Source of the DNA: Alphaproteobacteria bacterium
GTDB lineage: Bacteria > Pseudomonadota > Alphaproteobacteria > Micropepsales > Micropepsaceae
Direction of reading: 5' to 3'
Assembly (NCBI GenBank): GCA_018971835.1
Contig: JAGWZW010000014.1
Location: 1-58,672, forward strand
DNA length: 58,672 bases
The notes beneath the pieces are model-generated. The model worked only from the letters and a program-made list of their open reading frames with translations, was not told where the DNA came from and made no database searches. The position numbers and the translations under genes were made by a program. Shown here piece after piece: positions 21,487 to 36,273 of this stretch. Positions within the stretch are counted from its first letter, which is position 1, and the number at the start of each line of letters is the position of its first letter.

Positions 21487-21511
21487 GCGCAAATTATCTT
21501 TGCGCGTTTTT
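21487..21511 (+). terminator. Intrinsic terminator downstream of the SDR/ThDP operon
   Basis: GCGCAAA (21487-21493), loop TTATC, TTTGCGC (21499-21505), then GTTTTT. This is a good rho-independent terminator for rightward transcription. It overlaps the last codons of the leftward AAA+ gene, so the two convergent genes share it. Confidence 0.7.
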
Positions 21512-24500
21512 CGCGATCTTCTCCGACTGCGCGCCGATCAGGTCAAAATCCCCGGACAGCACGGTTTCGAGCCGGCCGGTGCGCCAGCCGCTTCGCGCGT
21601 CGCGTACAAGAGGGGCCGCACCCTCCCGATAGCGGCGTACCACGGAAGTCGGTTGGCCTGCGCGCGCGATGAGTTCCGAATAGGAGCGATAGGCATCATA
21701 GGCTCGCGGTTCCTCTCTTGGGCCCGCCACCACCCGGACACGCGCCACGCTGCGCCGCCCGTTTGCCGCGTCCTCAAGCACATGCAAACCCGCCTCATTG
21801 GCGAGCGTGCGGAAAGCGCCGAAGCCGCTCACATGCAGAAGCATGTCCCCGCGCCTTAAGGCCGGATTTATGTCCTCGAATTGCATTCGGCGACGTTCGG
21901 CCCACAGGCGGTACATCTGGGCGAGGCGCGCGCACCATTGCTCGCTCGTCGCTATCTCGGCGCCGGCATCAAGCGCCGGTTCAACAGAAATAACGGCATC
22001 CGCCGGCGCCTCGGTGAGCACATCGGTGATACCCTGCTCGATCACATAGAGCTGCAATGCCAGGCGCCCAACAAGCTCGCGCGACGCGCGAGCTGTGGCC
22101 GCGCCGTGCGAGCCGAGGCGCCGATGAAGGCGCTCTGCCGTGCGCGCCGCTTCGGCGACACTATCCATCACCGCGATGCGCGTGAACAGCAGATGGCGTT
22201 CAGGCCGCGACCAGACGTCAGGCGCAGAGGCCTGCTGGAGCAGCTCGTCCTTGAGGACAATCCAGTCGGGCGAAGCGAGCTTGGCTTCGACGGCTGCGAA
22301 CATAGTTTCCAGCGCCGCACGTTCCGGGGCATCGCCTCCGGGCTGCAGTATCATGGCCGGCAGCGAGGCCGGCGGCCCGAGTGGTGCCTCCGAATTGTCT
22401 TTGTCCGGCGCCTCGCCCGGCGCGTCAGGATCGACGAATTCGACTTCGATGGCCCTGCCATTGCTGCGCACGAACAGGAACTGGTCACCTTCGGGAAATC
22501 GATGCTCCACCAACGTCGCAGCGAGCGGCGCAAGGAGATATTCGTCGATTGCGCGCTTGAGGGGGCGAGCTCCCATTTCCGGCGAGAAGCCGCGATCGAG
22601 CAGGAATTCGATTGCCGTGGACTCCCACTCCACGGCCCAGTCGCGATTGCGCAGTCCGCGGCGCTCCAAGATCTGACGCAGTTCCTTGTGCAGGATATCG
22701 CGCATCACTTCGCGCGACAGCGGCTTGAAGACGACGATCTTGTCCAGCCGGTTGACGAATTCGGGGCGGAATGTCCGCGCGATCGACCGCAAGACCTGCT
22801 CCTCGCCATAGGAGCCCTTTGCGGGCAGAAAACCGAGATCCGCGCCCTGATGGCTCGTTGCACCGAGATTGGAGGTGAGGATGATAATCGTATGTCGAAA
22901 ATCGACGACATGCCCATTCGCATCGGACAGCCGCCCGTCATCGAAGACCTGGAGGAACAAGTCCCAAATGTTCGGATGGGCCTTTTCGAATTCGTCGAGC
23001 AGCACGACGGCAAAGGGTTGTTTGCGGATGCGCGCGGTCAACGAATCCGTTTCGGCGTAGCCGCGCTCCCCGATAATCTTGGCGGTCGAATCCGCAGTCT
23101 GAAACTCGCTCATATCGAGGCGGGTCATTCGCTCGGGCGAACTGAACAAGTATTCGGCCAGGGTCTTGGCGAGTTCGGTCTTTCCGGTTCCCGTCGGCCC
23201 CGCGAACAAAAAGACGCCGACCGGGCGATGCGGATCGAGGAGGCCCGCTTTCAGCATGGCAATCCGGTCCACGACTGCCAATACTGCTTCATCTTGACCG
23301 ATCAGGCGTGCACCAAAGAACTGCCGCACAGCGGCAAGGTCGATCTTCTCCTTATCGTCCAGTATCGCGTGGGGCAAACCGCTGATCTGCGATACCGCCG
23401 CGAGGACGTGGTCGGGCGTGACAATTCGCGCGTCAGCGGCATTCTGAACCGCGCGTTTCAGCAGACCGACGGCGATGCCGGGCAGGTGTGCGCCGCTGAG
23501 ATATTGTTGCGACAGCTGTAGACAGGCCGCGACCGTATGCTCATTGACAATCTTGCGATTGCTGCGCGCGATCTGCGAGGCGGCGTGTGCGAGGAAGGCT
23601 GACAGTTCTTCGGTACTGAAGGAGTTGAGCTGAAAGACTTCGATCTGCGTACGCAAGGACGGTCGCGACTGAAATAGCCGGCTGACGCCGTCGGGATTGG
23701 CCTCGGCGCATATGACAAGCCGCCCCGCGACCATCGCCGGGAGTATTTGATCGAGGACGCTCGCCGCCTGGCCGCTATGCCTGCCGCTCTCGGCAAGTTG
23801 AAGAATATTGCCGGCATACCAGAGTACGCGCTTGCCCGTTTCAAGTTCGGTTACGAGATTGCGGATGCGTCCTTCGAGTTCGCCGAAGTAGCTTTGTCCG
23901 GCCATCAAGTCCACCGCGCTAGCCTCGAACACGCGCCAGTCCTTGTCGGCAAGGCGCTTGCCGAGGATCTTCAGAAACGACGTCTTGCCGATGCGGGAAT
24001 TGCCCGTCACCAAAATCGAACGCGGCGGAAAGGCAAGCACGGAGTCCTGCGCGCGCTGGAGAAGGTCTTGCCACGGCTCCGGTGTGACGAGCACGTCGTC
24101 GGAGTTTCCGCTCCAGAAACGGCCGAAGGCGCTGAGGAAGTTGGTATCGACCCGGGAAGCCCGCCAGCGCGCAAGCTGCTCGCGCAGCGTGGGCGCGAAC
24201 GGATGATCGACGTAGGACAGGAAGGCGTCGATGACCGCCGGCTTCGAGGCCGAACCCCATTCGAGATAAGTGCCGAAATCCGGCCGGTCTCCGAGTGCCT
24301 CACCCGTCGCGAAGTAGTCGCGAAAGCTGTCGGCGAGAGCGACGTGCGAAATCCACCAGTTCTCGGCCAGGACCGCCGGCCCTCCGACCGGGGGCCGCTG
24401 TTCAAGGCTCGTAAAGTACCGAAGCGCGTAATGCATGACTTCGGGCTGGAGTTTGCGAAAATGCATGATGATCGTATCGAACAACGATTGACGCCCCGGC

Positions 24501-24832
24501 CTTGCAGCCAAGGCTTCGAACGCGGCGCAAGCGACGTACAGGTTTCCCGCTGTGGCATATTGACGGACGGTGTCGATGTTCACGTCGCCTTGCTTTAGAA
24601 GCCGGACTGCCTCTTGAAAATCCGGGCAATCCAGAAATTCCCGCGCGTGAACGGTCTTGCGTGCGAAGGTTTCGACCGCCGCACTCAGGCGGCCGAGCGC
24701 GGCGCCGAGACTTTCCTTTACGGCCGCTGCCTTTTTGGCGGCCGCCTTCTTTTCATGGCGCTCAAACCAGGCGAATAAGGTCATGACGATCGCGGCTGCG
24801 ATCGCATAGGAGACGAAATTCTCAATTGTCAT
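21494..24832 (-). CDS. Membrane-anchored Clp-type AAA+ protein fused to an RF2-like, GGQ-less domain
   Basis: This protein has 1112 residues. A single N-terminal membrane helix (about 6-22) and a charged stretch are followed by a helical region and then two AAA+ modules. D1 has Walker A GNSRIGKTS (about 277-285), but the Walker B site reads RVLWYAGN with no Asp-Glu. D2 is fully intact: GPTGTGKTEL (545-554), VVLLDEFEKAHP (609-620) and SNLGATS. The C-terminus (about 840-1103) matches bacterial release factor 2: a PDVWSRPER helix, then MYRLWAERRRMQFEDI, GAFRTLANEAGLHVLED, and LVRDARSGWRTGRLETVLSG ending in DFDLIG. The codon-reading and GGQ catalytic domain is missing. It is the third gene of an operon with sigma and anti-sigma-like genes. 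It could be an unfoldase or remodeller acting at the membrane; the RF-like part may bind ribosomes or a partner (inference). Confidence 0.85.
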   Translation of the reverse strand: MTIENFVSYAIAAAIVMTLFAWFERHEKKAAAKKAAAVKESLGAALGRLSAAVETFARKTVHAREFLDCPDFQEAVRLLKQGDVNIDTVRQYATAGNLYVACAAFEALAARPGRQSLFDTIIMHFRKLQPEVMHYALRYFTSLEQRPPVGGPAVLAENWWISHVALADSFRDYFATGEALGDRPDFGTYLEWGSASKPAVIDAFLSYVDHPFAPTLREQLARWRASRVDTNFLSAFGRFWSGNSDDVLVTPEPWQDLLQRAQDSVLAFPPRSILVTGNSRIGKTSFLKILGKRLADKDWRVFEASAVDLMAGQSYFGELEGRIRNLVTELETGKRVLWYAGNILQLAESGRHSGQAASVLDQILPAMVAGRLVICAEANPDGVSRLFQSRPSLRTQIEVFQLNSFSTEELSAFLAHAASQIARSNRKIVNEHTVAACLQLSQQYLSGAHLPGIAVGLLKRAVQNAADARIVTPDHVLAAVSQISGLPHAILDDKEKIDLAAVRQFFGARLIGQDEAVLAVVDRIAMLKAGLLDPHRPVGVFLFAGPTGTGKTELAKTLAEYLFSSPERMTRLDMSEFQTADSTAKIIGERGYAETDSLTARIRKQPFAVVLLDEFEKAHPNIWDLFLQVFDDGRLSDANGHVVDFRHTIIILTSNLGATSHQGADLGFLPAKGSYGEEQVLRSIARTFRPEFVNRLDKIVVFKPLSREVMRDILHKELRQILERRGLRNRDWAVEWESTAIEFLLDRGFSPEMGARPLKRAIDEYLLAPLAATLVEHRFPEGDQFLFVRSNGRAIEVEFVDPDAPGEAPDKDNSEAPLGPPASLPAMILQPGGDAPERAALETMFAAVEAKLASPDWIVLKDELLQQASAPDVWSRPERHLLFTRIAVMDSVAEAARTAERLHRRLGSHGAATARASRELVGRLALQLYVIEQGITDVLTEAPADAVISVEPALDAGAEIATSEQWCARLAQMYRLWAERRRMQFEDINPALRRGDMLLHVSGFGAFRTLANEAGLHVLEDAANGRRSVARVRVVAGPREEPRAYDAYRSYSELIARAGQPTSVVRRYREGAAPLVRDARSGWRTGRLETVLSGDFDLIGAQSEKIAKNAQR

Positions 24833-24955
24833 GTGCCCCCATGCCCCTACGCAGCAAGCTCGGTCTACTTCCCGTTATCTGAAGAAATATTTGCAAGATG
24901 CGGATTTGAGAATGGCGCCATCGTGCCGGTATGGCGAAAGGCTGAGCTGCACCAT

Positions 24956-26017
24956 TCAATGCGGGGCGTCATCGCCATGCGTCCAGTCATCCGAAGTTGC
25001 AGCGGCGGGGGGCGGCGAAGTGGGCGTGGATATTGTCGGCACCGCGTCGGCCGGAGCCGCATGCGCCCCATATTGCGACGTGCCGCGTTCATTGGCAAAA
25101 TCCTGCCCACAACCTTCGCGATGTGACGCCGCCTTCGGCTGCTTGGCGTCGGGGGCTATTGCACCGGCCATCTCATCGTCGCGCGCTGGCGGGCCGCCGC
25201 AAGAAGCCCGGTCTGCCGTATTCGATGACGTGTCCGCAGATGCGCCCTCCATCTGCATTTGCTGCGCGCCATAGCGGTCCATGACAGAAGCAGCGTCGCC
25301 TGCCGCTGGTGCCGGCACGCCTGCTGCCGGCGGCGGCGCGGTCGGCGATGCCTGCGGAAGAAGGGCCGCTGCCGCCGGCCCAGGGGATTGCGGCGCCGGC
25401 GACGGCTGGGTGGGTGCAGAAGCCGCCGGGGGAGCTTTATCAACAGACGGTGCCGGGCGACTGCCGGGCGCCGTATCCTGCGCAGGGGTTTTTACGGCAG
25501 CGTTCCGGGGCAGGGGGGCGGCGGCGAAGCGGTCAAGATTTGTCGAAACAACCAGCAGCAAGGAAAAGGCGACGGCGATACCGCCGCCCATCACCCCCAG
25601 CAGCCGAGGTCGGGTAGAAATCCAGGAAAGAATACTCTGCCGCAGCGGCTGTGAGCGACCGGGCGGTTCTGCAGCCGGCATCCCCGCAATCGCGGCTTGG
25701 ACCAGATCGTCGGGCGCGGTGAGCGGAGCGCCGGCCACTGCATCCACGAAGGACTGCACGGCCTGCATATGCAACAACTCGGCCGGCGCCCGCGCCATCT
25801 CGGCTTCAAAACGGTCACGCTCGGCACCATCCAGCGCACCGTCGAGCCAGGCCGCCAACCGTTCTTCGCTATCCCCGTCCGGCCGCGCAAGAATCTGCTC
25901 GCCGGCAGCCAGGATCGCCGCCAGTTCGGCGCGGCCTGCCGCGTCGGCCTCGTCTGAAGCCTCTGCTTCTCCAGGGAAAAGCCTGTCGATCAGGGCTGTA
26001 AGGTCAGCAATCCGCAC
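24956..26017 (-). CDS. Membrane anti-sigma-factor-like protein
   Basis: The product has 353 residues. The N-terminal cytoplasmic part carries RLAAWLDGALDGAERDRFEA (about 53-72), the 'L-AYLDGEL--AER--FE' pattern of anti-sigma domains, but without the HxxxCxxC zinc motif. One membrane helix follows (about 138-158, LLGVMGGGIAVAFSLLLVVS), then a long Ala/Pro-rich periplasmic tail with two Cys residues. It starts 25 bases after the sigma gene ends, the standard sigma/anti-sigma order, so it probably holds that sigma factor at the membrane. The signal that would release it is unknown. Confidence 0.72.
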   Translation of the reverse strand: MRIADLTALIDRLFPGEAEASDEADAAGRAELAAILAAGEQILARPDGDSEERLAAWLDGALDGAERDRFEAEMARAPAELLHMQAVQSFVDAVAGAPLTAPDDLVQAAIAGMPAAEPPGRSQPLRQSILSWISTRPRLLGVMGGGIAVAFSLLLVVSTNLDRFAAAPLPRNAAVKTPAQDTAPGSRPAPSVDKAPPAASAPTQPSPAPQSPGPAAAALLPQASPTAPPPAAGVPAPAAGDAASVMDRYGAQQMQMEGASADTSSNTADRASCGGPPARDDEMAGAIAPDAKQPKAASHREGCGQDFANERGTSQYGAHAAPADAVPTISTPTSPPPAAATSDDWTHGDDAPH

Positions 26018-26042
26018 CGCTCAGATGCTCCTTCCCGATTTC

Positions 26043-27134
26043 CTAGACGGACGCACGCCAGTTTTTGACCGCAGAATCTTCGGCTATGGCGTCGTGCAGA
26101 CATTTATGCACGCGTTGCTTGAGTTTGTAGATTTCCGCTATCGGTCGCTGCATCAGGCGGGCGATCTCGCGTGGCGGCAGGTTTTCGCCGCCGCCCAGCA
26201 CAATCTCCAAATAGATCCGCTCGCGGTCCGGCAGTGCGGCCGCGGCCTGACGCAGCGCCGCTGCGGCTGTGGTTGAGGCCAGTTCCCGGGCCTCGTCGAT
26301 CAGAACATCTTCGGGAGATGTCTCGCTCGCCCCGATCAGGCTATCGGCTGCATCCCCGTCGAGGGACGAAAGTGACACTGACGCCCCGCGCGCGGCCCGG
26401 GGCTGCCCGGCCGCCACGACGTGCACGCGCACCGTCGCGATCGCGGCAGATACATCTGCGTCGGAGGGCTGCGGCTCAATGCTGGCGCCCAGGGCCTCCC
26501 TCACGCTTGAAACATCGTCGGGCACGCCCCGCCATGCTAGGAGCCGGAACACCGCCTGTTCCAGCGTATCAAGCCTGGCCACGGCCGCCGGCAGGCGGCG
26601 GCGCGGCGCGATGCTGCGCGCGAAGTCGATCAGGATCCGATCCGCGATGCGCAGGACAAAGCCGGCAAAACTGCCAATCCCGGTATATTGGCGAAGACGC
26701 CGGTAATCATCTTCGATGAGCGCGATGCAAAGCTCCTGATAGCCGTCCGCGCGCAAATCCTCATAGGCCGCGCCGCTGAGCCTCGCCCGGACGCGCCGCC
26801 GCAGATCGTCCGCGAAGAAATGCTCGAACGCCGCCCAGCCCCGGCGCCGATCTTCGAACAGGAGACGCAGGATGCGCGCCGCGAGAAGGTCGCGCGTGAC
26901 GACAGCAACATAAGTCTCTACCCGGCCGCGGCCCCTATAGCCGCGCAACCGCGCAAAGCCATTGGCGCTGAGCGCCGCCGCAGCCTCTTCAAATGCCTCG
27001 CGCGCCTGCAACTCGCTGCCGCATGCCCGCACGCAGGCTGCCCAGACAATGGTGGAGATGCGGCGCAGGAATTCAGGACCGGCCCCGCCTTCGCCTGCAA
27101 TCGCAGACGCAAGGCAGGCAGCAAGGTCACGCAC
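26043..27134 (-). CDS. Sigma-70-family (ECF-like) sigma factor with a duplicated region-2-like segment
   Basis: This is a 363-residue protein, much longer than an ordinary ECF sigma factor. Region 4 is clear at about 296-350: AALPDRERIYLEIVLGGGE, then PPREIARLMQRPIAEIYKLK. Region 2 appears twice: EAFEEAAAALSANGFARLRG with YRGRGRVETYVAVVTRDLL (about 45-83), and GYQELCIALIEDDYRRLRQY with TGIGSFAGFVLRIADRILID (about 131-170). The second copy, which has the usual 'D' end, is probably the working one. It heads the leftward operon with the anti-sigma-like and AAA+ genes and is divergent from the secreted DUF4919-like gene. Its target promoters were not identified. Confidence 0.75.
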   Translation of the reverse strand: MRDLAACLASAIAGEGGAGPEFLRRISTIVWAACVRACGSELQAREAFEEAAAALSANGFARLRGYRGRGRVETYVAVVTRDLLAARILRLLFEDRRRGWAAFEHFFADDLRRRVRARLSGAAYEDLRADGYQELCIALIEDDYRRLRQYTGIGSFAGFVLRIADRILIDFARSIAPRRRLPAAVARLDTLEQAVFRLLAWRGVPDDVSSVREALGASIEPQPSDADVSAAIATVRVHVVAAGQPRAARGASVSLSSLDGDAADSLIGASETSPEDVLIDEARELASTTAAAALRQAAAALPDRERIYLEIVLGGGENLPPREIARLMQRPIAEIYKLKQRVHKCLHDAIAEDSAVKNWRASV

Positions 27135-27274
27135 TATGCTTTCCCTCCCCGCCCGGTTTTCGCCCCGGACAATCTAACATGCCGGGTCGCAGGGCCAAAG
27201 CATGGGGTTCCGTCAATTTTCTCGTCCCGTCCGTCCTTCCCCGAAGGCGTGCGATCATGCCGAGGAGCAATGCC

Positions 27275-27904
27275 ATGCAGTGGACCCGAGCCTGCTATCT
27301 TGGTGCAGCCCTGGCGCTGATAACCATTCCGGCCGCCGCAGGGCAGGCGGATACCTCTTACAAGGCGATGGTGGCCGCCGCGGAGGCCGGCCAGGCCGGC
27401 GTTGATTACGGCAAGTTGCGCGGCGCCTATGTCCACAGCGCGGGATACGATCCCTATGGCATGGCGGTCAGCAATCTTGTCGACGGGATGCGCAAGGCCT
27501 ATGCAGCCGGCGACTGCAAACTGGCCGCCAAGGACGCGGCCGCCATCAGCGCGCAGCAGTTCACCAACGTCGAGGCGCATCTTGCGGCTGCGCTCTGTTT
27601 CGAGAAATCGGGCAACAAGGCTGGAGCCGGCCGGCAGCACGAGATATTCCTCGGGCTTACGGGCTCGATTCTGGAATCCGGCGACGGATTGACGCCGGCG
27701 ACGGCCTTTCACGTCGTCAGCCTCGACGAGGAATATTTCGTTCTCACCGCGTTGGGGTTGAACGTGGGCGAACAGGCGCTTGTGCAACTGGGCGGGCACG
27801 CCTATGACCGGTTCGCCGTCTCCGCGAAAGACTTCGACGCCAAGTCGACCCTCTATTTCGAGATCGATCCGATTCTCGGCGCGGCGAAACAACGCCCGCA
27901 ATAA
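27275..27904 (+). CDS. Secreted DUF4919-like protein
   Basis: The product has 209 residues with a signal peptide (ACYLGAALALITIPAAAGQA). The mature part has VDYGKLRGAYVHSAGYDPYG and is then helical; this start block resembles the DUF4919 family, whose function is unknown. A pair of Cys (DCKLAAKD and ALCFEKSG) could form a disulfide in a TPR-like fold. I chose the ATG at 27275 because GAGGAG lies seven bases upstream; the ATG at 27257 has no ribosome site. It stands alone on this strand between the sigma operon and the lanthipeptide-like operon. Confidence 0.72.
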   Translation: MQWTRACYLGAALALITIPAAAGQADTSYKAMVAAAEAGQAGVDYGKLRGAYVHSAGYDPYGMAVSNLVDGMRKAYAAGDCKLAAKDAAAISAQQFTNVEAHLAAALCFEKSGNKAGAGRQHEIFLGLTGSILESGDGLTPATAFHVVSLDEEYFVLTALGLNVGEQALVQLGGHAYDRFAVSAKDFDAKSTLYFEIDPILGAAKQRPQ

Positions 27905-27940
27905 GTGCGCGGGTTCTCGCCGCCGGCAGACAGACGCGTA

Positions 27941-27973
27941 GAAGCCGCCGCAGTGCCTGACTGCGGCGGCTTC
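27941..27973. terminator. Strong bidirectional hairpin between convergent genes
   Basis: GAAGCCGCCGCAG (27941-27953), loop TGCCTGA, then the perfect complement CTGCGGCGGCTTC (27961-27973): a 13-pair stem. It lies between the rightward DUF4919-like gene and the leftward polyproline gene. There is no T-tract on either side, but its strength and place fit a terminator. Confidence 0.65.
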
Positions 27974-27993
27974 TGTGCATTGGCCATCCCGGC

Positions 27994-28188
27994 TTATCCG
28001 CGGACCGCAGCAACCGCGGTCGGGCGCGGCGGAGGCGGGGGCGGGGGAGGCGGTGGCGGTGGCGCCGAATAGGTGGTGGTCGACACCGCGACTTGCGCCG
28101 CGGCTGGTAACGCGACGGTCGCCGCGGTCAATACCGCCACCACCAACAACGCGCCACGCGCGGCCCGGTGAACTGCATGCCTGTACAT
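27994..28188 (-). CDS. Small secreted polyproline peptide, last gene of the LanB/LanC operon
   Basis: This is a 64-residue product starting MYRHAVHRAARGALLVV. The signal peptide ends near LPAAAQ, and the mature part is only about 30 residues: VAVSTTTYSA, a run of 12 prolines, then RPTAVAAVRG. GGGAGA lies six bases before the ATG, supporting expression. It follows lanB by 95 bases. It has no Cys and no leader motif, so it is not obviously a substrate of LanB and LanC. Both Cys-rich precursors also end in proline-rich tails, which suggests a shared surface or cell-wall role (inference). Function unknown. Confidence 0.62.
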   Translation of the reverse strand: MYRHAVHRAARGALLVVAVLTAATVALPAAAQVAVSTTTYSAPPPPPPPPPPPPRPTAVAAVRG

Positions 28189-28283
28189 TGTTCGTCTCCC
28201 TTTGATGTGCGGGAGACGGCAACCGCCCCCCAAGCGCTACATCTGTAGAGACGGACACGGCACGGATTTTTGCCGCCGCGCCC

Positions 28284-31200
28284 TCAGCCCGCCGACGGGT
28301 TCTCGCTCGACCCGGCCTGTGCGCGCGCGCGGGCCCAGCGTGCCTCGTAGCCGCGCGACAACAGCCCGAAGGCGCGGCGCTCCAGGTTCCGGTCCGTCCC
28401 CAGGAACCGGTTGCAGTGCATGTGCATCAGGCTTTCAACGATGTTCTGCATGGGACAGCTGAGGGCCTCTCGCGCCTCGAGCGCCCGCAAGCGGGCGCCG
28501 AGCGCCGGCAGGTGACGGTCGTAAAGCGCGAGCGGCGCCGGCGAAGGCGGGCGGGCGACATCCAGCGCATCCTGAAGGTCTTTGTTGCGCCGGCGATATT
28601 CGTCACTCGTCTCGCGCCGGAAGCCGGCATATCGCTCGCGCCACCAGTCGCGTGCGCGCTCCTCGACGCCCAGCCCGCGCAGCAGGCGCGCCAGGCTGGC
28701 GACGGCGGGCAGTACGCGCTGGTCGGCGGGCGTTGCGTCCTTCGCAAGCAGATCGAGAACGACCCGGCTGTCGATGGCGAATATCTGCTCGACAACATCG
28801 ATGGCCTCGGGCCCGCCATAACGCTCGATCTCGCGCTCATAGGTATCGAAGGCAAAGCTGCGGCGCTGGTCAGCCGCCACCAGCGAAGTACCCCATTCAC
28901 AGAGCCGCGGCAGGACTTTGCGCCAGAGCCTTCGCGCATCGCCCTTGAAGCGGAGCCGCAAATGCGGATCCGGATCGGAATAGCGCAGGAAGAAGAACGG
29001 CAGATTCGCATCGCGACGCGGAAGCGTCGCAAGAAAGGCCGGCAGCGCGGCGGATATGAGATCGTCCTCGCTCTCGCGCCCGCCATAGAGCTTCATATAA
29101 AGCCAATCGCTGCCGGGCGGGCGCATCCGTTCCGCAGGCGACACAGCGTGCGCGTTTCGGGGGGGCGCGATCCGGCGCGTATGCGACGCCGCACCATCGA
29201 GATCGCGCCGGTAAAGCGAAACGGCCAGTTCGCAAATATAGTGTCCGCCCGGTCCCTCGAGCCAGGCGTGCTCCGGTCCCGGCAAGGCCTCCTGCAAGGT
29301 GAGTGGAGGCGAGCCCGGCTTCAGCTTGCGCACGTCGCTCCACAACGCCTCGGCGAAGACTGCCTTCTCGAGGTCGAAGAGGAGCCTGTGATCGCCGGCG
29401 CTGAGGTAGACATGGCGCGGCACATTCCAGGCCCGGCGCCAGGCCGCGAGGCGTTCGGCGAAGCTGGCAGGCGACTTCGCTTGCAGATGCTTGCCGGCCA
29501 ACGCCGCATCGATACGCCATTGCGCGGGAACCAGAATGACCCTGCCGGCCTCGAGCCGCGGCAGGAACGGAAAGGCCGATGCCGATCCCCAATCGAACAT
29601 TTGCAGCATTGGCCGGCCGTCATTCGAAACGTCTGCGAGAAAGCGGCAGAGAACCGGCGCGTAGAGGAAGTTCAGCATATGCGTGCTGGTGACGAGTACG
29701 CGCGCGCCGCGGCTCAGCGAGCGCAGGTAGAAGCGGCCATCGGCAATGCCGACGACGAGGTCGGCCGGTGAGAGCGTGTCCTCGGCTGCCACTCCGGGTG
29801 CTGCGCCTAGCGCAATCTCATGACGCTGGATCGGCGGACGGATCGCGACATTGGCCGAGCGGAACTTGCGCGGGGGATAGATGATTTCGGCCCGGATGGC
29901 ATCTGGATCAGCGGCCGCGCTTGTGCTTGCCATCCGGCGCAGGGCTGCGGTCGCCTCCGCACCGAGAAGGTCGGCGAAGCGCGCCAGATTGCGGCCGGCA
30001 GCGCCCGCACCGATATTGGGACCGATCGCGACCTTGAAATCGCCGGCATCGATGGCCGCGCGCGACTGCGCGATGACGAAGGTATAGATATCGTGCGAAG
30101 GCGCTGCGGTTTTCTCATCCGGCGGCCACATCTCCATCTCAGACAGCGTCTGGTCGTCGAGCGATCGGACGGGTGTGCGGTCGCGCAAGGTCTCGCAAGC
30201 GAGCGCGAACAGTATCTGGTTGCGGCGTGCCATATTGCCCGCGCCACCCGAACCGGCCCAGGACGCTTCTCCACTATAGGCCGGCGGCGGACCAAGGCCG
30301 CTCTCGGGATCGAGCAGTTCAAGGAGCGGCACCTCGCGCTCGGCGCCGTAGCGATTGACAAAATTCGCGCGATAGGCCTCGAGCGGGCCGAAACTGCGCG
30401 AGGACGGCGCCAGGCGGAGCAGCAATTCGAGCGCGCGCGCGGCTTCTTCGCCCACGGTCCGCGTGATCGTGACGTCCGACAGGAACCAGGACATGTCGAC
30501 CTGGATCGGCGTATCGCTCGGCAAGGGCGAGGCTGCTGCGGCGATGGCATGCAGGCGCGCCACCTGGGCGCGGCAATCGCCCGCTTCCAGCTTGGTCCAC
30601 GACCGGCACGCATCATCGAAGGCGATAAGGCCCACTCTGATCTCCGCGGCCGCCGCAACCGGCTCCAGACGGGCGATGACGTGGCCGACAGGATTGTCCG
30701 TGGTCAATGGCGGACGAAGTTCCGACAAGAGCAGGGTCTGGTCCAAGAGTTCGTCGACCAGCGCTTCGATCCTGGCGCGTGCGGAGGGATCGCGGCCCGC
30801 TGTCAGATGCGCCACGATCTCGTTGTAAGGCCTGGGCGCATTGGCGAATGCCAGAATGCTGTTCACCGCATTCGTAGCGCGCAGCGACACCCGCGGCTCC
30901 GCCACCCCTTCGCCGTGCGACACGCGCTCGGCCAGATAGACCCGGCCGCTACGACTATAGGCCGCCGGATTGACGTAGAGCCGCAGCGCTTTGCGGATAG
31001 CCGGCTGCCCCTCAAGATGTAGCACGAGCCGCAACAGCCAATCCATGTCGGGGCGGGCGCGGATCCGTTGGGCGCTGCCGGCAAGCCTGAGGCCTGTCGT
31101 GCTGGCGCACTGTCCCAATGCGACGCCGGAGAACAGTCCGAATGGCGTAGGCCTTGCGCTCGCGCGGATCAGATAGCGCAGCAGCTTTGCCTCGGCCGAG

Positions 31201-31412
31201 CGTCTTGCACTCTCGCTTACCGACGCATCTTCCAGCCGCGCTGTCAGGGAGTTGCTGGCGACGGCGATCGCTGCGCGCAGGCGCGGATCATCAAGCTGTT
31301 CACCGGCGGGCGCATTTCCCAGCGCATCGTAGAATTCGACCGGCAGCAGAGGGGCGCGCACCTGCATGACGTCGAAGGGCCGATAAAGCGGCGTGCCGAT
31401 ACAGCGCTTCAT
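28284..31412 (-). CDS. lanB: Full-length LanB-type lantibiotic dehydratase
   Basis: The product has 1042 residues, the size of complete class I lanthipeptide dehydratases such as NisB (about 1000). The N-terminal Lant_dehydr_N-type glutamylation domain starts YRPFDVMQVRAPLLPVEFYD and includes RYLIRASARPTPFGLFSGVA, a hallmark block. The C-terminal SpaB_C-type elimination domain (about 765-1035) has DWLYMKLYGGRESEDDLI and FFFLRYSDPDPHLRLRF. Family enzymes use glutamyl-tRNA to activate Ser and Thr, then eliminate to Dha and Dhb. Its ATG overlaps the lanC stop codon (ATGA), so the two are translationally coupled. The expected substrates are the two Cys-rich peptides upstream. Confidence 0.9.
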   Translation of the reverse strand: MKRCIGTPLYRPFDVMQVRAPLLPVEFYDALGNAPAGEQLDDPRLRAAIAVASNSLTARLEDASVSESARRSAEAKLLRYLIRASARPTPFGLFSGVALGQCASTTGLRLAGSAQRIRARPDMDWLLRLVLHLEGQPAIRKALRLYVNPAAYSRSGRVYLAERVSHGEGVAEPRVSLRATNAVNSILAFANAPRPYNEIVAHLTAGRDPSARARIEALVDELLDQTLLLSELRPPLTTDNPVGHVIARLEPVAAAAEIRVGLIAFDDACRSWTKLEAGDCRAQVARLHAIAAAASPLPSDTPIQVDMSWFLSDVTITRTVGEEAARALELLLRLAPSSRSFGPLEAYRANFVNRYGAEREVPLLELLDPESGLGPPPAYSGEASWAGSGGAGNMARRNQILFALACETLRDRTPVRSLDDQTLSEMEMWPPDEKTAAPSHDIYTFVIAQSRAAIDAGDFKVAIGPNIGAGAAGRNLARFADLLGAEATAALRRMASTSAAADPDAIRAEIIYPPRKFRSANVAIRPPIQRHEIALGAAPGVAAEDTLSPADLVVGIADGRFYLRSLSRGARVLVTSTHMLNFLYAPVLCRFLADVSNDGRPMLQMFDWGSASAFPFLPRLEAGRVILVPAQWRIDAALAGKHLQAKSPASFAERLAAWRRAWNVPRHVYLSAGDHRLLFDLEKAVFAEALWSDVRKLKPGSPPLTLQEALPGPEHAWLEGPGGHYICELAVSLYRRDLDGAASHTRRIAPPRNAHAVSPAERMRPPGSDWLYMKLYGGRESEDDLISAALPAFLATLPRRDANLPFFFLRYSDPDPHLRLRFKGDARRLWRKVLPRLCEWGTSLVAADQRRSFAFDTYEREIERYGGPEAIDVVEQIFAIDSRVVLDLLAKDATPADQRVLPAVASLARLLRGLGVEERARDWWRERYAGFRRETSDEYRRRNKDLQDALDVARPPSPAPLALYDRHLPALGARLRALEAREALSCPMQNIVESLMHMHCNRFLGTDRNLERRAFGLLSRGYEARWARARAQAGSSENPSAG

Positions 31413-32773
31413 GACAGCAAGAACACCCTGTCCCAGCACGGTGCCCGGTCGGTCGCGAAAGCGAGAAGCGCCGCGGCGACGCCAGGGGCGCCGTCCAGGA
31501 ATCCCGGGCGGTCTATCCGGCGGCCCTCCGGCTCATGCGCGCGAAAACCCAACACGCTGTCTGGTTCATAAAGCTCAAGAAGCATGTCGAGCATGGCCCG
31601 GCTCGCCTCCCACAACCAGGGCAGATCGGTATCCTGCGCAAAGCGCAGGACGATATGGGCAAGGCCCGAGACGCCGTGACAAAAGGTCGGCGACGAGATC
31701 TGGCGTGCTTGCCAGGGCCGGGCGCAGATGGCGCGCACGGCCTCCAGCGCCGCGTCGCGATAGCGCGGTTCATCAAGCGCATCGCCCGCCAGCCACAAGG
31801 CGCGCGCGACGCCCGGGCTGCCATAACACCAGGCCGCATGGGTCGGATGCAGGGGCTTACCGAAATGCGCATGGACTTCCTGCGGCAGAATCGCTCGCCT
31901 GGCACCGCCGACCGTGGCGACGGGAATGGCCGCTGGCCAGTTTGTGCCCCAAGCGTCGTCCACGCGATGGGCCAGAAGCCAATCGGCGCCGCCGCGGATG
32001 CGTTCCTCGACAAGGCCATTGTTGTGCATGCCGGCCTTATAGGCGAGGGCAAGGGCGGCAAGCGGCCCCGGAATGCCGTGCGCAAGTCCGCAGTTTAAAT
32101 TGCCTTCCGCAAATTCGGCGCGCATGTCGGGATTGGCGATGCGTTCCGGTGGCGTATACCACGCCGGCAGGCCATCGACGCTGGCGACGGCGCACAGCGC
32201 CTCGATCACCGGCGCCAGGGCGTTGGCGAGTTCGTCGGTGTCCTGGCGGGCCAGCATGCAGGCGGCAGTTCCAGCCAGGCCGGAAATGGCGTCGAATTGG
32301 TGCACGGACAGATCATGCACATTGCTGTGAAGCTGTTCACCGGCATCGCGCGCGCTTTTGGCCAGAGCCGTGTCGATTTCGCCTTGAAGGCGGCGATAAC
32401 GCGTGCCGCCTCTCGACAGCAGATCGACGACCAGCGAAAGCCCGGCAAGGCCTCCGAACGCCCCGATCGGTGGCGATGCCATGCCTTCAAGGGATTGCGC
32501 GGCAGACTGGAGATAGCCATGTGCCTGACGATCCCAGCCGTCCTCAGGGAAACTGGCGTCGAGGCAGGCAAGTAACAGAGCCAGGCCCACCTCGCCCTGC
32601 GCAACAGAAAGCGCCGACCAATGGGCGCCCTCGGGAAATGCCGTCTGCTTGCGATTGAATGCGACTGCGCGCGCGATGCGCTCACGATCGCAAGTGCGCC
32701 TGCCGACCTCGCGCGCGATCTCCAGCGCGCGATCGCGGGCGGTTGCCTCGATCATAATCTTCCAAAGCGCCAC
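31409..32773 (-). CDS. lanC: LanC-type lanthionine cyclase
   Basis: This 454-residue protein has the LanC alpha-toroid repeats (GEVGLALLL, FGGLAGLSLV, AISGLAGTAA, LAHGIPGPLA, YGSPGVARAL, HGVSGLAHIV, GAPGVAAALL). The zinc ligands are all present: C316 (AAWCYGSPG), C365 and H366 (TFCHGVSG). The His that matches the catalytic His of NisC is H232 (GLAHGIPG). It should catalyse Michael addition of Cys thiols to Dha or Dhb. The start is either GTG at 32773 or ATG at 32755; neither has an ideal ribosome site. It sits 18 bases after precursor 1 and overlaps lanB, so precursor and enzymes are one transcript. Confidence 0.9.
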   Translation of the reverse strand: MALWKIMIEATARDRALEIAREVGRRTCDRERIARAVAFNRKQTAFPEGAHWSALSVAQGEVGLALLLACLDASFPEDGWDRQAHGYLQSAAQSLEGMASPPIGAFGGLAGLSLVVDLLSRGGTRYRRLQGEIDTALAKSARDAGEQLHSNVHDLSVHQFDAISGLAGTAACMLARQDTDELANALAPVIEALCAVASVDGLPAWYTPPERIANPDMRAEFAEGNLNCGLAHGIPGPLAALALAYKAGMHNNGLVEERIRGGADWLLAHRVDDAWGTNWPAAIPVATVGGARRAILPQEVHAHFGKPLHPTHAAWCYGSPGVARALWLAGDALDEPRYRDAALEAVRAICARPWQARQISSPTFCHGVSGLAHIVLRFAQDTDLPWLWEASRAMLDMLLELYEPDSVLGFRAHEPEGRRIDRPGFLDGAPGVAAALLAFATDRAPCWDRVFLLS

Positions 32774-32791
32774 GAGCGGTCTTTTCCCTGC

Positions 32792-33175
32792 CTATTCCGG
32801 CGACGGTTCGGGCGGCGCGCAGACGCAGGTGGCGGCACAACTTCCGTTGCAGGTGCCCAGGCACGTTGCTGCGCATGTCGCCTGGCAGGTTCCCATGCAG
32901 GTGGCTTCGCAGGTCGCCATACAGGTTCCCATACATGTGCCTCCGCAAGTTCCGCCGCAGGTGCCCAGGCAGGTGCTGCCGCAAGTCGCAGTGCAGCCAG
33001 CGGCGCTCGGTTCGAACTGCGCGATTTGGGTGCCGCCGCGCGTGAGCCGCACGTCAATATCGAATTCGTCGTCCGGGTGATTGCGTGCCACGGCGGGCAC
33101 TACCCAGAAGCCGACAACTGTGGCCGCCAGTCTCGCCAAGAAATGGCGCCGCGGCGGCGTATTGCGTTCCGTCAT
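32792..33175 (-). CDS. Cys-rich RiPP precursor 1 with Tat-like signal and FDIDVRL leader
   Basis: The precursor has 127 residues. It begins with a twin-arginine-type signal, PPRRHFLARL (RRxFL) plus a hydrophobic stretch ending VVPAVA (about 9-30). Next comes the leader block DDEFDIDVRL (35-44), which matches the F-(N/D)-(L/I)-D box of class I lanthipeptide leaders bound by LanB. The core (61-119) has 16 Cys, almost all exactly four residues apart, as 14 tetrapeptides of the form x-(A/G/S)-(T/S)-C (13 with Thr, one with Ser). The tail is APPEPSPE. AGAGG lies before the ATG. It is adjacent to lanC and lanB. The modified state is inferred, not shown; metal binding or disulfides are the alternatives. 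Confidence 0.8.
   Translation of the reverse strand: MTERNTPPRRHFLARLAATVVGFWVVPAVARNHPDDEFDIDVRLTRGGTQIAQFEPSAAGCTATCGSTCLGTCGGTCGGTCMGTCMATCEATCMGTCQATCAATCLGTCNGSCAATCVCAPPEPSPE
32819..32995 (-). repeat. 12-bp-period coding repeat of precursor 1 core
   Basis: This stretch encodes residues 61-119 of precursor 1 as tandem 12-base units (x-x-Thr-Cys). Thr uses ACC, ACT, ACA and ACG, Cys uses TGC and TGT, and Gly varies too. The DNA units have therefore diverged while the peptide period is kept exactly, which points to selection on the peptide rather than a fresh slippage repeat. Confidence 0.85.
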
Positions 33176-33232
33176 TCGTTATCCTCTGCTGGGTTCACCG
33201 GCGCCGGTCTGTCAACAATCGCCCATCATCGC

Positions 33233-33754
33233 CTATGAGGGCGGCGGAGGAGGCGGACAGCCGCAGGTATCGAAGCCGCATGTGCTGCCGCAAGACGTCG
33301 GACTACAGCTGGCCCCACCGCAGGTTCCCATGCAGGAGTCCGGGCACGTGTTATGGCAGGTGGGCGTGCAGCTGTCGCCGCACGAGCCACCACAGCTTTC
33401 TGTGCAGGTGGGAACACAGGAAGGCGGGCACGAACCGGTGCAGCAGTCGCTGCCGCTATCCTCCTGCGCGATGCGCGGACCTTTGTGCGACAGGCGGACG
33501 TCGATATCGAATTCGTCATCGGCCGCGGCTGTGCGGCGCCGCAAGGATGCTGAAGCCGGAGACGCCCCCATACCGGCCATTCCGGCAAGACCAAGGATCA
33601 CCGCGCCGATCCGCGTCACGACAAGCCGGCGCGCGCCGTCCGCAGGCGGCGAAGCTGCTGCCCTCAGTCCACCGCGCCCGCGATTGCGCAAGACGGCCGC
33701 CACACCGGCCACGCCCACCAAACCCAGAAAGACACTCAGACCGTAAATCCACAT
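33233..33754 (-). CDS. Cys-rich RiPP precursor 2 with membrane/Tat-like N-terminus and FDIDVRL leader
   Basis: The precursor has 173 residues from the ATG at 33754, which has GGAG eight bases upstream. It starts with a membrane helix (MWIYGLSVFLGLVGVAGVAA). A second hydrophobic segment is preceded by ARRLVV (RRxPhiPhi, Tat-like) and ends ASPASA (about 64-69), like a cleavable signal. The leader block DDEFDIDVRL (79-88), then a G and IAQ, is shared with precursor 1. The core (104-166) has 17 Cys, mostly every four residues, as x-x-(S/T)-C units (TGSC, PPSC, VPTC, TESC and so on), with three five-residue spacings near the end. The tail is GCPPPPPPS. It is a divergent paralogue of precursor 1, 57 bases upstream. 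Confidence 0.8.
   Translation of the reverse strand: MWIYGLSVFLGLVGVAGVAAVLRNRGRGGLRAAASPPADGARRLVVTRIGAVILGLAGMAGMGASPASASLRRRTAAADDEFDIDVRLSHKGPRIAQEDSGSDCCTGSCPPSCVPTCTESCGGSCGDSCTPTCHNTCPDSCMGTCGGASCSPTSCGSTCGFDTCGCPPPPPPS
33257..33445 (-). repeat. 12-bp-period coding repeat of precursor 2 core
   Basis: This encodes residues 104-166 of precursor 2: eleven Cys in strict four-residue steps (105-145), then steps of five, five, four and five. The unit residues are more varied than in precursor 1 and Ser is about as common as Thr, but the (S/T)-C ending is kept in every unit. Confidence 0.75.
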
Positions 33755-33809
33755 CACGTCGATCTCCTGCCGAAAGATGTGCCTCAAATGCGTGTCCGCC
33801 CGTGCGGCC

Positions 33810-34175
33810 TCAAGCCCTTCTGCTGCGGGCAGGGTTGTCCAGATATCCGATCGTGGAAAACAGGATCAGCAGGCCGGCTATCAAGCCGGCCCACCACGGA
33901 AGCGCAAAGACATAGGAAACAGCGATTCCGGCGCCGATGCCCAGAACGATTCCAAGAGGCGCGATCCAGCCGCCTTTGGCCCCGTCATAATCGCCCCGCA
34001 CCATCCGCTGGGCATCAATCGCCTGCCCGCAGGCCGGGCATGTCACATGCTCCGCCCTGTTGCCGAGCCCGATATAGCGTGCGCCGGAGCTGGCGATTTC
34101 GCCTAACACATAGGCCTGCGCACTTTTGGTGAGCCGCGCCCTACAGTTAGGACAAAAGAATGTCTCTGATGGCAT
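33810..34175 (-). CDS. Zinc-ribbon membrane protein
   Basis: The product has 121 residues. The N-terminal cytoplasmic part has two CxxC pairs, FCPNC (C8, C11) and TCPACG (C46, C49), forming a zinc ribbon. Two membrane helices follow: APLGIVLGIGAGIAVSYVFA and WWAGLIAGLLILFSTIGYL. It lies 55 bases upstream of precursor 2 on the same strand, so it is likely co-transcribed. Its function is unknown. It could tether or sense, or handle Cys-rich substrates at the membrane (inference). Confidence 0.72.
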   Translation of the reverse strand: MPSETFFCPNCRARLTKSAQAYVLGEIASSGARYIGLGNRAEHVTCPACGQAIDAQRMVRGDYDGAKGGWIAPLGIVLGIGAGIAVSYVFALPWWAGLIAGLLILFSTIGYLDNPARSRRA

Positions 34176-34243
34176 GGCCCCATCCCCAATTTTTCATGTT
34201 ACACCTTTTTTTGCGGCCTCAAAGTCCAATTCAGCCGCAACCG

Positions 34244-34456
34244 TCAACGTCGGTCCTCGGGCAGTTTGGGAGAAGGCGGCATGGGATCGACGCCCAGCGG
34301 CACCATCGGCCCCTTGACGCAGCACGGGCAGCAACAGCAGCAACCGGAAGGATAGGCATCCACGCTCTGGGCACCGGACGTAGTGGCTCCGGCAATCAGA
34401 CCGGCGACCAGGCCGCCAAGCAACGCGCCTGTAAGAAAATTGGAAATACCGCGCAC
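34244..34456 (-). CDS. Small Cys-cluster membrane peptide
   Basis: The product has 70 residues from a GTG at 34456 with a perfect GGAGG seven bases upstream. It has a glycine-rich hydrophobic helix (FLTGALLGGLVAGLIAGATT, about 7-26), then the run SGCCCCCPCCVKGP with seven Cys in eight positions, and a Pro-rich tail (MPPSPKLPEDRR). An in-frame upstream extension exists but has no ribosome site. It is the first gene of the leftward operon, 68 bases before the zinc-ribbon gene. It lacks the FDIDVRL leader, so it is probably not a LanB substrate. The Cys cluster could bind metal or be lipidated or disulfide-linked; the function is unknown. Confidence 0.62.
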   Translation of the reverse strand: MRGISNFLTGALLGGLVAGLIAGATTSGAQSVDAYPSGCCCCCPCCVKGPMVPLGVDPMPPSPKLPEDRR

Positions 34457-34772
34457 CCGAGTCCTCCGCAACTGTCCTGACAAGTATGACGGACGGGCGC
34501 GCAAAATTGGCCGCCTCCGGGCGCGGGACTGGAAATTCAGCGGCGAATTTGGCGCAGAAGTATCGGCCGATGCCTGGTCGCCTTCCATCGGCAGGATGTC
34601 GAAGTCCAGGGGCGAAAATGCGGGCGTGCCCGTCTGTGATAACGTGCCCGTACACATTCGGCCAGCACAGTAGCAATCCGGCGTGCGCGGGCCTAGCGGC
34701 CGGTTTCGTTTTACTGTCGCATGGCAGACACCAATAGTCTTTTTCCAAATTTGGACGCCAAAGGAGACACAG
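34457..34772. other. Divergent intergenic region between the RiPP operon and a secreted-protein gene
   Basis: About 316 bases with no gene I can support; it must hold the promoter of the leftward operon and that of the rightward gene at 34773. I found no clear -35/-10 pair and no copy of a motif shared with the sigma-operon promoter region (27135-27274). Confidence 0.5.
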
Positions 34773-35486
34773 ATGAAGGCGAACAGGACCGTGCTTGCCT
34801 ATGCTGCAGGCGTGCTCTCAACATTTCTGGCGGTGGCTGCCGGGCAGGCCGTTGCCGCCATGCACGATGCCAGCTTCGATACCATCGACGTGCACCGCAT
34901 CAATCTGCGTGAACCGGACGGCACGCTGCGCATGGTGATCTCTGATCGCGCGGAATTTCCCGGCGCCATCGAGAAGGGCAAGGAATATCCCCACCCGTCG
35001 CGCAACGATTCCGCCGGCATGATCTTCTTCAACGACGAGGGCACCGAAAACGGCGGGCTGATTTTCGGCGGCAAGGACGTGAATGGAAAAATCTTCAATT
35101 TCGGCCATCTGAGCTTCGATCAGTACGAACAGGATCAGGTGCTGACGCTCGAACAAGGCGAAGAGAACGGCACACGCTGGGCGGGGCTCTCGATTGCGGA
35201 CAGGCCGGACAAGCCCCTCGACTACGCGGCGCTCGCCAAGTTCGATGCGGTGAAAGATGGACCTGCCAAGGCGGCGCTGCTGAAGAAACTGGAGGCCTCT
35301 GGTGCCGTCGGCGGCGCGGGGCGGGTCTTCATCGGCAAGGACCGCAAGCGTGAATCGCGGGTCAGCTTGCGCGACGCCGATGGCCGGGCGCGGTTGGTGC
35401 TGTCCGTCGCTGCGGACGGCACGGCATCGATTGCGTTCCTCGATGCAAAGGGCAAGGTGGTGCGTACGATCGGCCCTGGAAGCTGA
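34773..35486 (+). CDS. Secreted protein of unknown function
   Basis: The product has 237 residues. The N-terminal signal or anchor (VLAYAAGVLSTFLAVAAGQA) is followed by a mostly beta domain with two similar strand pairs, INLREPDGTLRMVISDRAEF and RVSLRDADGRARLVLSVAAD. It has no Cys in the mature part. The ATG at 34773 follows AAGGAG at seven bases. It is divergent from the RiPP operon, so it may share a control region, but no function is recognised. Confidence 0.7.
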   Translation: MKANRTVLAYAAGVLSTFLAVAAGQAVAAMHDASFDTIDVHRINLREPDGTLRMVISDRAEFPGAIEKGKEYPHPSRNDSAGMIFFNDEGTENGGLIFGGKDVNGKIFNFGHLSFDQYEQDQVLTLEQGEENGTRWAGLSIADRPDKPLDYAALAKFDAVKDGPAKAALLKKLEASGAVGGAGRVFIGKDRKRESRVSLRDADGRARLVLSVAADGTASIAFLDAKGKVVRTIGPGS

Positions 35487-35990
35487 TGGCCCGCCGCCGC
35501 TAGCCAGTTCGCCCGGGGTGTTCAATCTGCATCGATGATTGCGGGAGCGCGATGACATGCGGCATCAGCCGCCGGCTCATTCGTGTTCCGATATTCGGCC
35601 CGTTCCGCAGGCGGCAGGGCGGACCACCGCATCGAGGCCTGCAATCCTGCCGCGCTGAACTTGACGAATGTCGCGGAGGACGCGTAGGCCGGAGATCGAG
35701 GTGTCGGCGGCTAGTGTCGTCGTATCCATGACGCTGACACGTTCGGGGCGGCATGGGGCGGGAAGTTGCCTCGCTCGCACAACGGTCAGTTTGTCATCTC
35801 GACGGTGAACCATATTTTGTCGCGCGTGGCATAGGCCCTAACGCCGTCGTAACGCGAGCAGACGATTACACTCTGGCGGCGGAAAGGCGTTCAGGTCGGA
35901 ACGCGCCATGAGTGAAGACCGCGCAAAAACGGCGACCTGTTCCGCAATGAAGCCGATGGAGCAATAATGCTCCCGTTGTACGCAATATGA
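35487..35990. other. Gene-free stretch between the secreted protein and kdp
   Basis: About 500 bases with no coding region that has both a ribosome site and a recognisable product. Short open frames occur on both strands but look random. It ends in the kdp control region. Confidence 0.5.
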
Positions 35991-35996
35991 TTGCCC

Positions 35997-36016
35997 ATCT
36001 ATATGAAATCTATATG
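35997..36016 (+). promoter_or_regulatory. Direct repeat upstream of kdp, candidate KdpE site
   Basis: ATCTATATG occurs twice (35997-36005 and 36008-36016) with an 11-base period, one helical turn, as OmpR-family regulators usually bind. An AT-rich TTTATACG (36042-36049) lies 27 bases downstream as a possible -10 region, and the first kdp ORF starts at 36093. The AT-rich repeat stands out from the GC-rich surroundings. Confidence 0.5.
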
Positions 36017-36092
36017 CGCTGGGTTCGCCTCCGCTCTCGAATTTATACGCCGGAAGGTTGAGGCTATCGCTCAGCATGCAAGGAGGCAGATC

Positions 36093-36176
36093 ATGCTCGA
36101 TCTCGTCTATATCGGCGTGGGGCTCGCTTTTTTCGTTCTGGCCGCTCTGTATGTCACCGCCTGCGAGCGTCTTTGA
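36093..36176 (+). CDS. 27-residue membrane peptide preceding kdpF
   Basis: This is a single-helix peptide: MLDLVYIGVGL, then AFFVLAALYVTACERL. The ribosome site AAGGAGG is excellent (36080-36086). It lies seven bases before kdpF. Similar short one-helix peptides before kdpF are often left unannotated in alphaproteobacterial kdp operons. It is probably a small KdpFABC-associated subunit or stabiliser, by position only. Confidence 0.65.
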   Translation: MLDLVYIGVGLAFFVLAALYVTACERL

Positions 36177-36183
36177 GGCAGTC

Positions 36184-36273
36184 ATGACGCTCGATCTCTG
36201 GCTCGGCGCCTTCGTGACGGTCGGCATTCTTGCCTATCTCGTCTATGCGCTTGTCCGCCCCGAACGCTTCTGA
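36184..36273 (+). CDS. kdpF: KdpF, small subunit of the K+-transporting ATPase
   Basis: The product has 29 residues with one membrane helix: [20 protein letters not shown] then RPERF. The 'YLVYAL-RPE-F' ending is the KdpF signature. KdpF stabilises the KdpFABC complex in the inner membrane. It sits eight bases before kdpA. Confidence 0.85.

Follow-up and report, generated by a model that had tools for sequence, protein, structure and literature searches.

A candidate class I lanthipeptide operon encoding two Cys-rich, probably exported CXXX precursors that may carry long ladders of overlapping rings

Background

The question raised by this locus is what is made from a peptide that carries a Cys at almost every fourth position of its core when genes for a lanthipeptide dehydratase (LanB) and cyclase (LanC) lie next to it. 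Two such peptides, designated P1 and P2, are encoded in the window, the whole stretch of 58,672 nucleotides that was analysed, and the initial annotation of this DNA regarded them as class I lanthipeptide precursors. Periodicity of the CXXX type is, by itself, also found in the targets of radical SAM enzymes. According to section 14 of PMC11251773, no known lanthipeptide exceeds seven bridges and no predicted one exceeds eight, and the most complex prediction contains five overlaps at most; the portion of that paper cited here leaves open whether the limit on ring number is functional or synthetic.

Results

Organization of the operon

The genes were read from the minus strand in the order P0010 (34657-34244), P0009 (34175-33810), P2 (33754-33233), P1 (33175-32792), lanC (32755-31409) and lanB (31412-28284), the last four being arranged head to tail. 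P2 (173 aa from its ATG, with a 17-Cys core) and P1 (127 aa, with a 16-Cys (x-x-T-C)n core) have the sequences CAGGAG and AGAGG, respectively, upstream of their ATG codons and are separated by 57 bases. A further 36 bases lie between P1 and lanC, which encodes 448 residues from its likely ATG in a frame that is open from GTG 32773. The lanC stop and the ATG of lanB, which encodes 1042 residues, overlap in the sequence ATGA.

LanB matched the glutamylation domain (PF04738, E 1.5e-170) and the elimination domain (PF14028, E 3.1e-55) in one frame, the scores being computed on the 1051-aa frame from GTG 31439, and its relatives in the PDB were 5ehk, 9g04, NisB (4wd9) and 6m7y. LanC matched PF05147 (E 3.9e-46), with 8byk, NisC (2g02) and the LanC-like protein 3t33 as relatives of known structure. 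Its motifs WCYG, FCHG and GLAHG, which we take to be the carriers of the Cys-Cys-His zinc ligands of LanC, aligned with 8byk and with NisC, where the second motif is ICHG, and were invariant in an alignment of four sequences, the window LanC and three relatives. Judged by these matches, both enzymes of a class I lanthipeptide system, a full-length LanB and a LanC with the cyclase motifs, are encoded here. The Pfam domains and the ATGA overlap bear out the earlier statement that complete lanC and lanB genes directly follow the precursors.

The small protein P0009, which has two Cys pairs and a hydrophobic C-terminal half, ends 55 bases ahead of P2 and is perhaps co-transcribed with P2, P1, lanC and lanB; its matches to zinc-ribbon profiles were all under their cut-offs. 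P0010 has DFDIL near its N-terminus, a hydrophobic segment and the run CCCCCPCC. It was without a family match in the profile search, and a search of 96 genomes of the family returned one other match, which was weak and had stops inside. That P0010 is an accessory protein, or a third substrate or precursor of the operon, is speculative.

Among the neighbours scanned, from 21494 to 36227, no exporter or protease gene and no match to an MNIO enzyme was found. Rfam gave nothing at gathering score between 28000 and 36300, and the promoter and terminator scan was near chance level. Genes for a sigma factor, an anti-sigma-like protein and an AAA/Clp-like protein lie between 21494 and 27904, along with an oppositely oriented gene for a DUF4919 protein. 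Of 69 genomes of the genus, 4 have the sigma factor, and one of these, the sister genome G054, has the AAA protein as well. As possible parts of the system, the genes for the sigma factor (26043-27134) and for the AAA protein (21494-24832) were considered and left out, because in G054 the two are paired on an 18-kb stretch without such peptides, and the P1 search of the 96 family genomes found no match in G054.

Sequence and periodicity of the precursors

The ten-residue block DDEFDIDVRL is identical in P1 and P2, as had been noticed initially. At the DNA level, 5 of its 30 bases differ between P1 and P2; all five changes are synonymous, which favours selection on the peptide. The block is a leader motif of the FxLD type in which I replaces L; FxLD is described in the cited part of PMC7268733 as a long-recognised motif.

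The proposed check against profile collections left both peptides under the cut-offs. P1 scored 15.1 bits against TIGR04363 (FxLD family lanthipeptide, cut-off 30), which P2 did not match, and neither peptide matched NF038155 (FDLD family class I lanthipeptide) up to E 0.1, a profile that the precursor of a related locus, L004 (see below), passed with 25 bits against a cut-off of 20. P1 and P2 have the same kind of leader block as these two families but fail both profiles. P2 also scored 22.2 bits against TIGR04117, under the cut-off of 50, and P1 15.4 bits against TIGR04114, under the cut-off of 20.

P1 contains 16 Cys, and 14 of the 15 spacings between them are four residues, the last being two. 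A Ser or Thr lies directly N-terminal to 14 of the 16 (13 Thr, 1 Ser). Shuffling the P1 core 2000 times gave 1.6 four-residue spacings on average and never more than 6, compared with 14 observed; when the Cys were held fixed, Ser/Thr directly before Cys averaged 4.7 with a maximum of 10, again compared with 14. Thr is encoded by all four of its codons (ACC 9, ACT 3, ACG 2, ACA 2) and 13 of the 14 twelve-base units are distinct as DNA; the period is therefore maintained in the peptide and is not a fresh DNA repeat. The initial annotation had reached the same view from codon usage. P2 is less regular, with four-residue spacings in 11 of 16 cases among its 17 Cys and a Ser or Thr ahead of 14 of these (8 Ser, 6 Thr). 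In total, P1 has 20 Ser/Thr for its 16 Cys and P2 has 24 for 17. The description of a core with Cys every four residues and Thr or Ser before Cys is thereby confirmed by the counts for both peptides and by the P1 shuffles.

Three features had gone unmentioned, a Tat-like N-terminus in P1, hydrophobic stretches in P2 and a common ending of the two cores. The P1 N-terminus, PRRHFLARLAATVVGFWVVPAVA, has R-R-x-F-L, a hydrophobic stretch and A-V-A (PRRHFLA...AVA), and its best 17-mer has a hydropathy of 1.79. P1 was not matched by the Tat profile TIGR01409 up to E 0.1; the window's genome encodes TatC. In P2, two hydrophobic stretches precede the shared block. P1 and P2 are small, probably exported proteins, the route of P2 being the less clear of the two. 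The P1 core ends T-C-V-C and the P2 core T-C-G-C, each followed by a Pro-rich tail, and the upstream end of the P1 core carries Ser/Thr of its own (S-A-A-G-C and T-A-T-C).

LanB-linked relatives in other phyla

At E 1e-20, the sole LanB match in the family (96 genomes), the class (385) and the phylum (398) was the window's own genome; LanB was absent from the other 95, 384 and 397 genomes (the sets overlap), and the operon therefore looks acquired. P1 at E 1e-5 matched only its own genome among the 385 of the class and had no match in plasmids and phages. LanB hit 154 stretches of viral contigs, none of which was confirmed. Against the contigs of GTDB species genomes, LanB as a single-sequence query found no relative, and a LanB alignment found 13 loci with relatives, the closest of which (L016, 46%) belongs to Limobrevibacterium gyesilva of the Acetobacteraceae. 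Among 150 genomes around Limobrevibacterium, only the Limobrevibacterium genome itself was matched. In the plasmid collection 67 records matched, the closest two being from Streptomyces sp. NBC_01320 (L002) and Nonomuraea gerenzanensis (L003). Further LanB relatives occurred in Ktedonobacteria (Chloroflexota), Bryobacteraceae (Acidobacteriota) and Actinomycetota.

A peptide bearing the block was found at 12 of the 15 lanB loci examined; the scan upstream of lanB found no precursor at L006, L013 and L015. Long Cys-rich cores (11-35 Cys) with an FDLD-type block lay upstream of lanB at L002, L003, L007, L011, L012 and L016, and short cores of 4-5 Cys with such a block at L004, L005, L008 and L009. 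Because its precursor goes out of frame within the core, L010 was excluded from the core statistics; L014 has a partial lanB match only, preceded by a FELDL peptide that was not used. The precursors of L003, L007 and L011 are about 82% identical and hence not independent. L004 comes from Ktedonosporobacter rubrisoli; the opposite strand of this locus encodes another lanC and lanB, the latter matched in several pieces, and the genome has one more lanB locus, L005. In the Streptomyces plasmid (L002:5938-10701), an IS66-type transposase gene interrupts LanB close to the C-terminus, with the remaining piece downstream.

The six loci with long cores resemble the window in their precursor-lanC-lanB order, in an EFDLDVR or EFDLDIR block and in their long cores rich in Thr-Cys, and the window LanB is 40-46% identical to theirs. 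They differ in that Cys spacings of 3, 4 and 5 are mixed, whereas P1 keeps strictly to 4, and in that a domain of about 100 residues stands where P1 and P2 have a signal-like N-terminus. This domain precedes the EFDLD block at L016:5826-6131, L002:3717-4031, L003:4011-4322, L007:6176-6487, L010:6674-6985, L011:6164-6475 and L012:1121-1489, is absent from P1 and P2, and occurred in 4 of the 7 genomes searched, once in each. It was predicted to be a small beta domain of six strands, with central blocks at pLDDT 80-93, and gave no Foldseek match at E 0.001 or better and no VIA Z of at least 5. These outcomes do not argue for a new fold. A hydrophobic signal was found in neither L003 nor L016, the two Cys-rich relatives tested, so signal-borne export is not a family trait. 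The recurrence of the same kind of block in related operons supports the earlier proposal that it is the leader motif recognised by LanB.

CXXX peptides of sister species

At E 0.001, P1 matched five of the 96 family genomes, namely the window's own, G020, G024, G060 and G052. The G052 match (E 6.2e-4, one stop inside) was dropped as a short-unit tandem repeat at a contig end with no signal. The peptides of G020, G024 and G060, three sister species, have a twin-arginine signal (e.g. DRRGFLKSG...PARA) followed by a CXXX core; they have no FDID block, and their genomes are without lanB. A protein beside the CXXX peptides of G024 matched TIGR04115, the radical SAM maturase family for CXXX-repeat targets (596 bits, cut-off 350), and when four of the sister peptides were scanned against TIGR04117, three were over the cut-off of 50 and one scored 49.5. 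TIGR04115 was matched in 3 of the 96 family genomes, exactly these three, and had no match in the window's genome (G000), which is 96.7% complete. The signal-bearing CXXX peptides matched by P1 were thus accompanied by one maturase or the other in all four genomes kept, and never by both.

Ten peptides were extracted from the three genomes (L036-L039); nine of them share a contig with the maturase, whereas L039 (G024) is on a different one. No synteny was detected between the window and the radical SAM loci fetched (tblastn, window ORFs of at least 100 aa, E 1e-10), and therefore a gene swap at a single locus is not demonstrated. In the ten radical SAM-linked cores, 113 of the 147 Cys directly follow a Ser, Asp, Thr or Gly. 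Thr stood directly before Cys in 23 of the 147, compared with 75 of 129 in seven lanBC-linked cores, and Ser or Thr in 67 of 147 compared with 89 of 129.

Homologues regularly found without lanB or lanC had been named at the outset as an observation against the lanthipeptide reading. The sister peptides come close to it, but they lack both the FDID block and the Ser/Thr placement described below, and their genomes encode a radical SAM maturase, so that they separate two systems and do not refute the assignment.

Placement of Ser and Thr

The rationale of the Ser/Thr placement (DISCRIMINATING) test was that LanBC rings need a Ser or Thr suitably upstream of each Cys, whereas radical SAM targets do not. 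Bridges were assigned from the C-terminus to the nearest preceding unbonded Ser/Thr at least three residues away, a rule that is right for 92 of 100 known patterns (section 14 of PMC11251773) and that was applied without its labionin clause. The score was the fraction of 5000 shuffles, with Cys fixed, that were as good in both the number of bridges and the longest span. The core sets (lanBC-linked + radical SAM-linked) were 7+10 for the counts of the residue before Cys, 6+5 for the spacing and pairing shuffles and for an earlier placement run, and 12+10 for the final run.

The rule assigned all 16 Cys of P1, with spans of 4, 3, thirteen of 5, and then 3, and 14 crossings, and all 17 Cys of P2, with spans of 3-6. 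In the relatives it assigned 24 of 24 Cys at L002, 13 of 13 at each of L003, L007 and L011, and 34 of 35 at L016, where spans ran to 11. The fraction of shuffles as good was 0 for P1, L002, L003, L011 and L016 and 0.0002 for P2 and L007; the earlier run had given 0 for P1 and 0.0004 for P2. L012, at 0.74, did not pass. The short-core relatives scored 0.23 (L004), 0.02 (L005), 0.02 (L008) and 0.24 (L009), and the ten radical SAM-linked cores were at chance level (0.35-0.94). By a second measure, the number of bridges with a span of 7 or less, the values were 0.0008 for P1, 0.0076 for P2, 0.55 for L016 and 0.80 for L012, just 3 of the 34 bridges at L016 being that short, as expected by chance.

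When pairing was run in the reverse direction, 15 of 16 Cys in P1 (spans 3-6) and 14 of 17 in P2 were assigned. The reverse pairing of P1 is nearly as complete as the forward one, that of P2 less so, and therefore the test supports the pairing of Ser/Thr with Cys more than its direction, which rests on the known behaviour of LanC. The initial annotation had argued that rings must skip units, and a Ser/Thr placement that fits bridging beyond chance in both P1 and P2 supports this.

Discussion

We favour, with a probability of roughly 0.6, the reading that the operon is a class I lanthipeptide system in which an exported CXXX scaffold would be turned into ladders of 16-17 overlapping rings. The gene order, the conserved enzyme motifs, the block, the periodicity with its statistics and the relatives are observed and support it. 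From these we infer the dehydration, ring pattern, export and stiffness of the P1 and P2 products. LanB would bind the FDID-type block and glutamylate and eliminate the Ser and Thr of the core, converting Thr to dehydrobutyrine and Ser to dehydroalanine, and LanC would join the thiol of each Cys to a dehydro residue lying three to six residues N-terminal to it. As the repeat unit is x-x-Thr-Cys, the Thr of unit n would pair with the Cys of unit n+1 (i to i+5), so that successive rings would overlap by one Thr-Cys pair. Iterated, this overlap would give stiff, thiol-free ladders, with 16 rings for P1 and 17 for P2. The first Cys of both peptides would be served by Ser/Thr at the upstream end of the core and the extra Cys of the T-C-x-C ending would pair with the last Thr, so that no Cys would be left unpaired. 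Modification would take place in the cytoplasm, after which P1, and perhaps P2, would exit through a general pathway (Tat in the case of P1) by means of an N-terminal signal. As to the role of the products, our first guess is antagonism of other bacteria and our second a component of the envelope.

LanB and LanC might instead act partly or in another pattern, leaving some lanthionine rings along with free dehydro residues, disulfides or bound metal, and no regular ladder. The excess of Ser/Thr over Cys means that not all of them must react, the L012 and L016 cores are without short spans, and the reverse pairing of P1 is almost as complete as the forward. The seven-bridge ceiling of known lanthipeptides may also reflect a real limit, which would count against the ladder. 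However, both P1 and P2 provide every Cys with a short-range upstream Ser/Thr, at the irregular ends too, far above the shuffles, and we consider partial action rather unlikely. The initial assignment of P1 and P2 to class I gains from the related operons, the cyclase motifs and the Ser/Thr placement; it needs the correction that a CXXX core is not confined to lanB loci.

Another candidate reading is that the peptides are exported CXXX proteins of the radical SAM-target type (TIGR04117/TIGR04115) beside which lanBC is incidental. The Tat-like N-terminus and CXXX core of P1 do resemble the sister-species peptides, and the sub-cut-off matches of P2 to TIGR04117 and of P1 to TIGR04114 point the same way. 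Such an account is highly improbable, however, given that the window's genome is unmatched by TIGR04115, that the FDID block and the Ser/Thr placement of P1 and P2 are absent from the radical SAM-linked peptides, and that the precursor-lanC-lanB order recurs in other phyla. We also think it very unlikely that P1 and P2 are unmodified Cys-rich proteins that bind metal or form disulfides. They have 33 Cys over two short peptides, and the bufferins, which are exported Cys-rich RiPPs as well, bind copper, according to the cited part of PMC12452194; the linkage to lanC and lanB and the leader block argue against this, and a Thr before nearly every Cys of P1 would be unexpected for metal binding.

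The enzymes and the leader logic are of a known kind. A core this long and regular, a probable export by signal and a radical SAM counterpart in sister species were not found in the open-access literature searched. The initial annotation had likewise known of no described lanthipeptide family with so long and strict a four-residue core. Long Cys-rich class I cores as such are known, as in the lanB-linked relatives with 11-35 Cys, and the cited part of PMC11251773 refers to an actinobacterial clade with CxxxCxxxC within a class I subfamily.

More tentatively, one genus may process a like exported CXXX scaffold by two unrelated chemistries, radical SAM in three species and LanB/LanC here, the latter with an FDID block and a Thr or Ser before nearly every Cys and yielding exported products in which 16 and 17 (methyl)lanthionine rings overlap, over double the seven of known lanthipeptides. 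Taken as a whole, this picture is possible but doubtful. Should the ladder form, no lanthipeptide ring system known to us would come near it in size, and LanC would be able to run along a repeat. The radical SAM version of the sister species would serve as a natural experiment in which a similar repeat meets two maturases, and the recognition block with the Thr/Ser placement would be a sequence rule separating their targets. A genetically encoded thioether rod of tunable length, exported by a general route, would be a useful scaffold.

Comparison with known systems

With the class I lanthipeptides of the nisin group, the operon shares a full-length LanB, a separate LanC with CYG/CHG motifs, an F-D-I-D block comparable to their FNLD/FxLD leader box and a core of Ser, Thr and Cys. 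The intertwined D and E rings of nisin (the term is used in the cited part of PMC10257480) resemble the overlap predicted for P1 and P2. The window differs from the nisin group in its 16-17 predicted rings, in the strict four-residue repeat of P1 and in the signal-like N-termini before the block; the scan of its neighbours gave neither a transporter nor a protease.

Bufferins and other MNIO-modified RiPPs are likewise Cys-rich peptides behind a general-export signal, a feature described as rare on bacterial RiPP precursors, and differ from P1 and P2 in having a Sec signal and an MNIO enzyme (cited part of PMC12452194). The TIGR04117/TIGR04114 targets of the sister species, which belong to the same genus, resemble P1 in that an R-R signal and a hydrophobic stretch are followed by a CXXX core; they differ from P1 and P2 in lacking the FDID block and lanB and in being served by a different maturase with a different chemistry.
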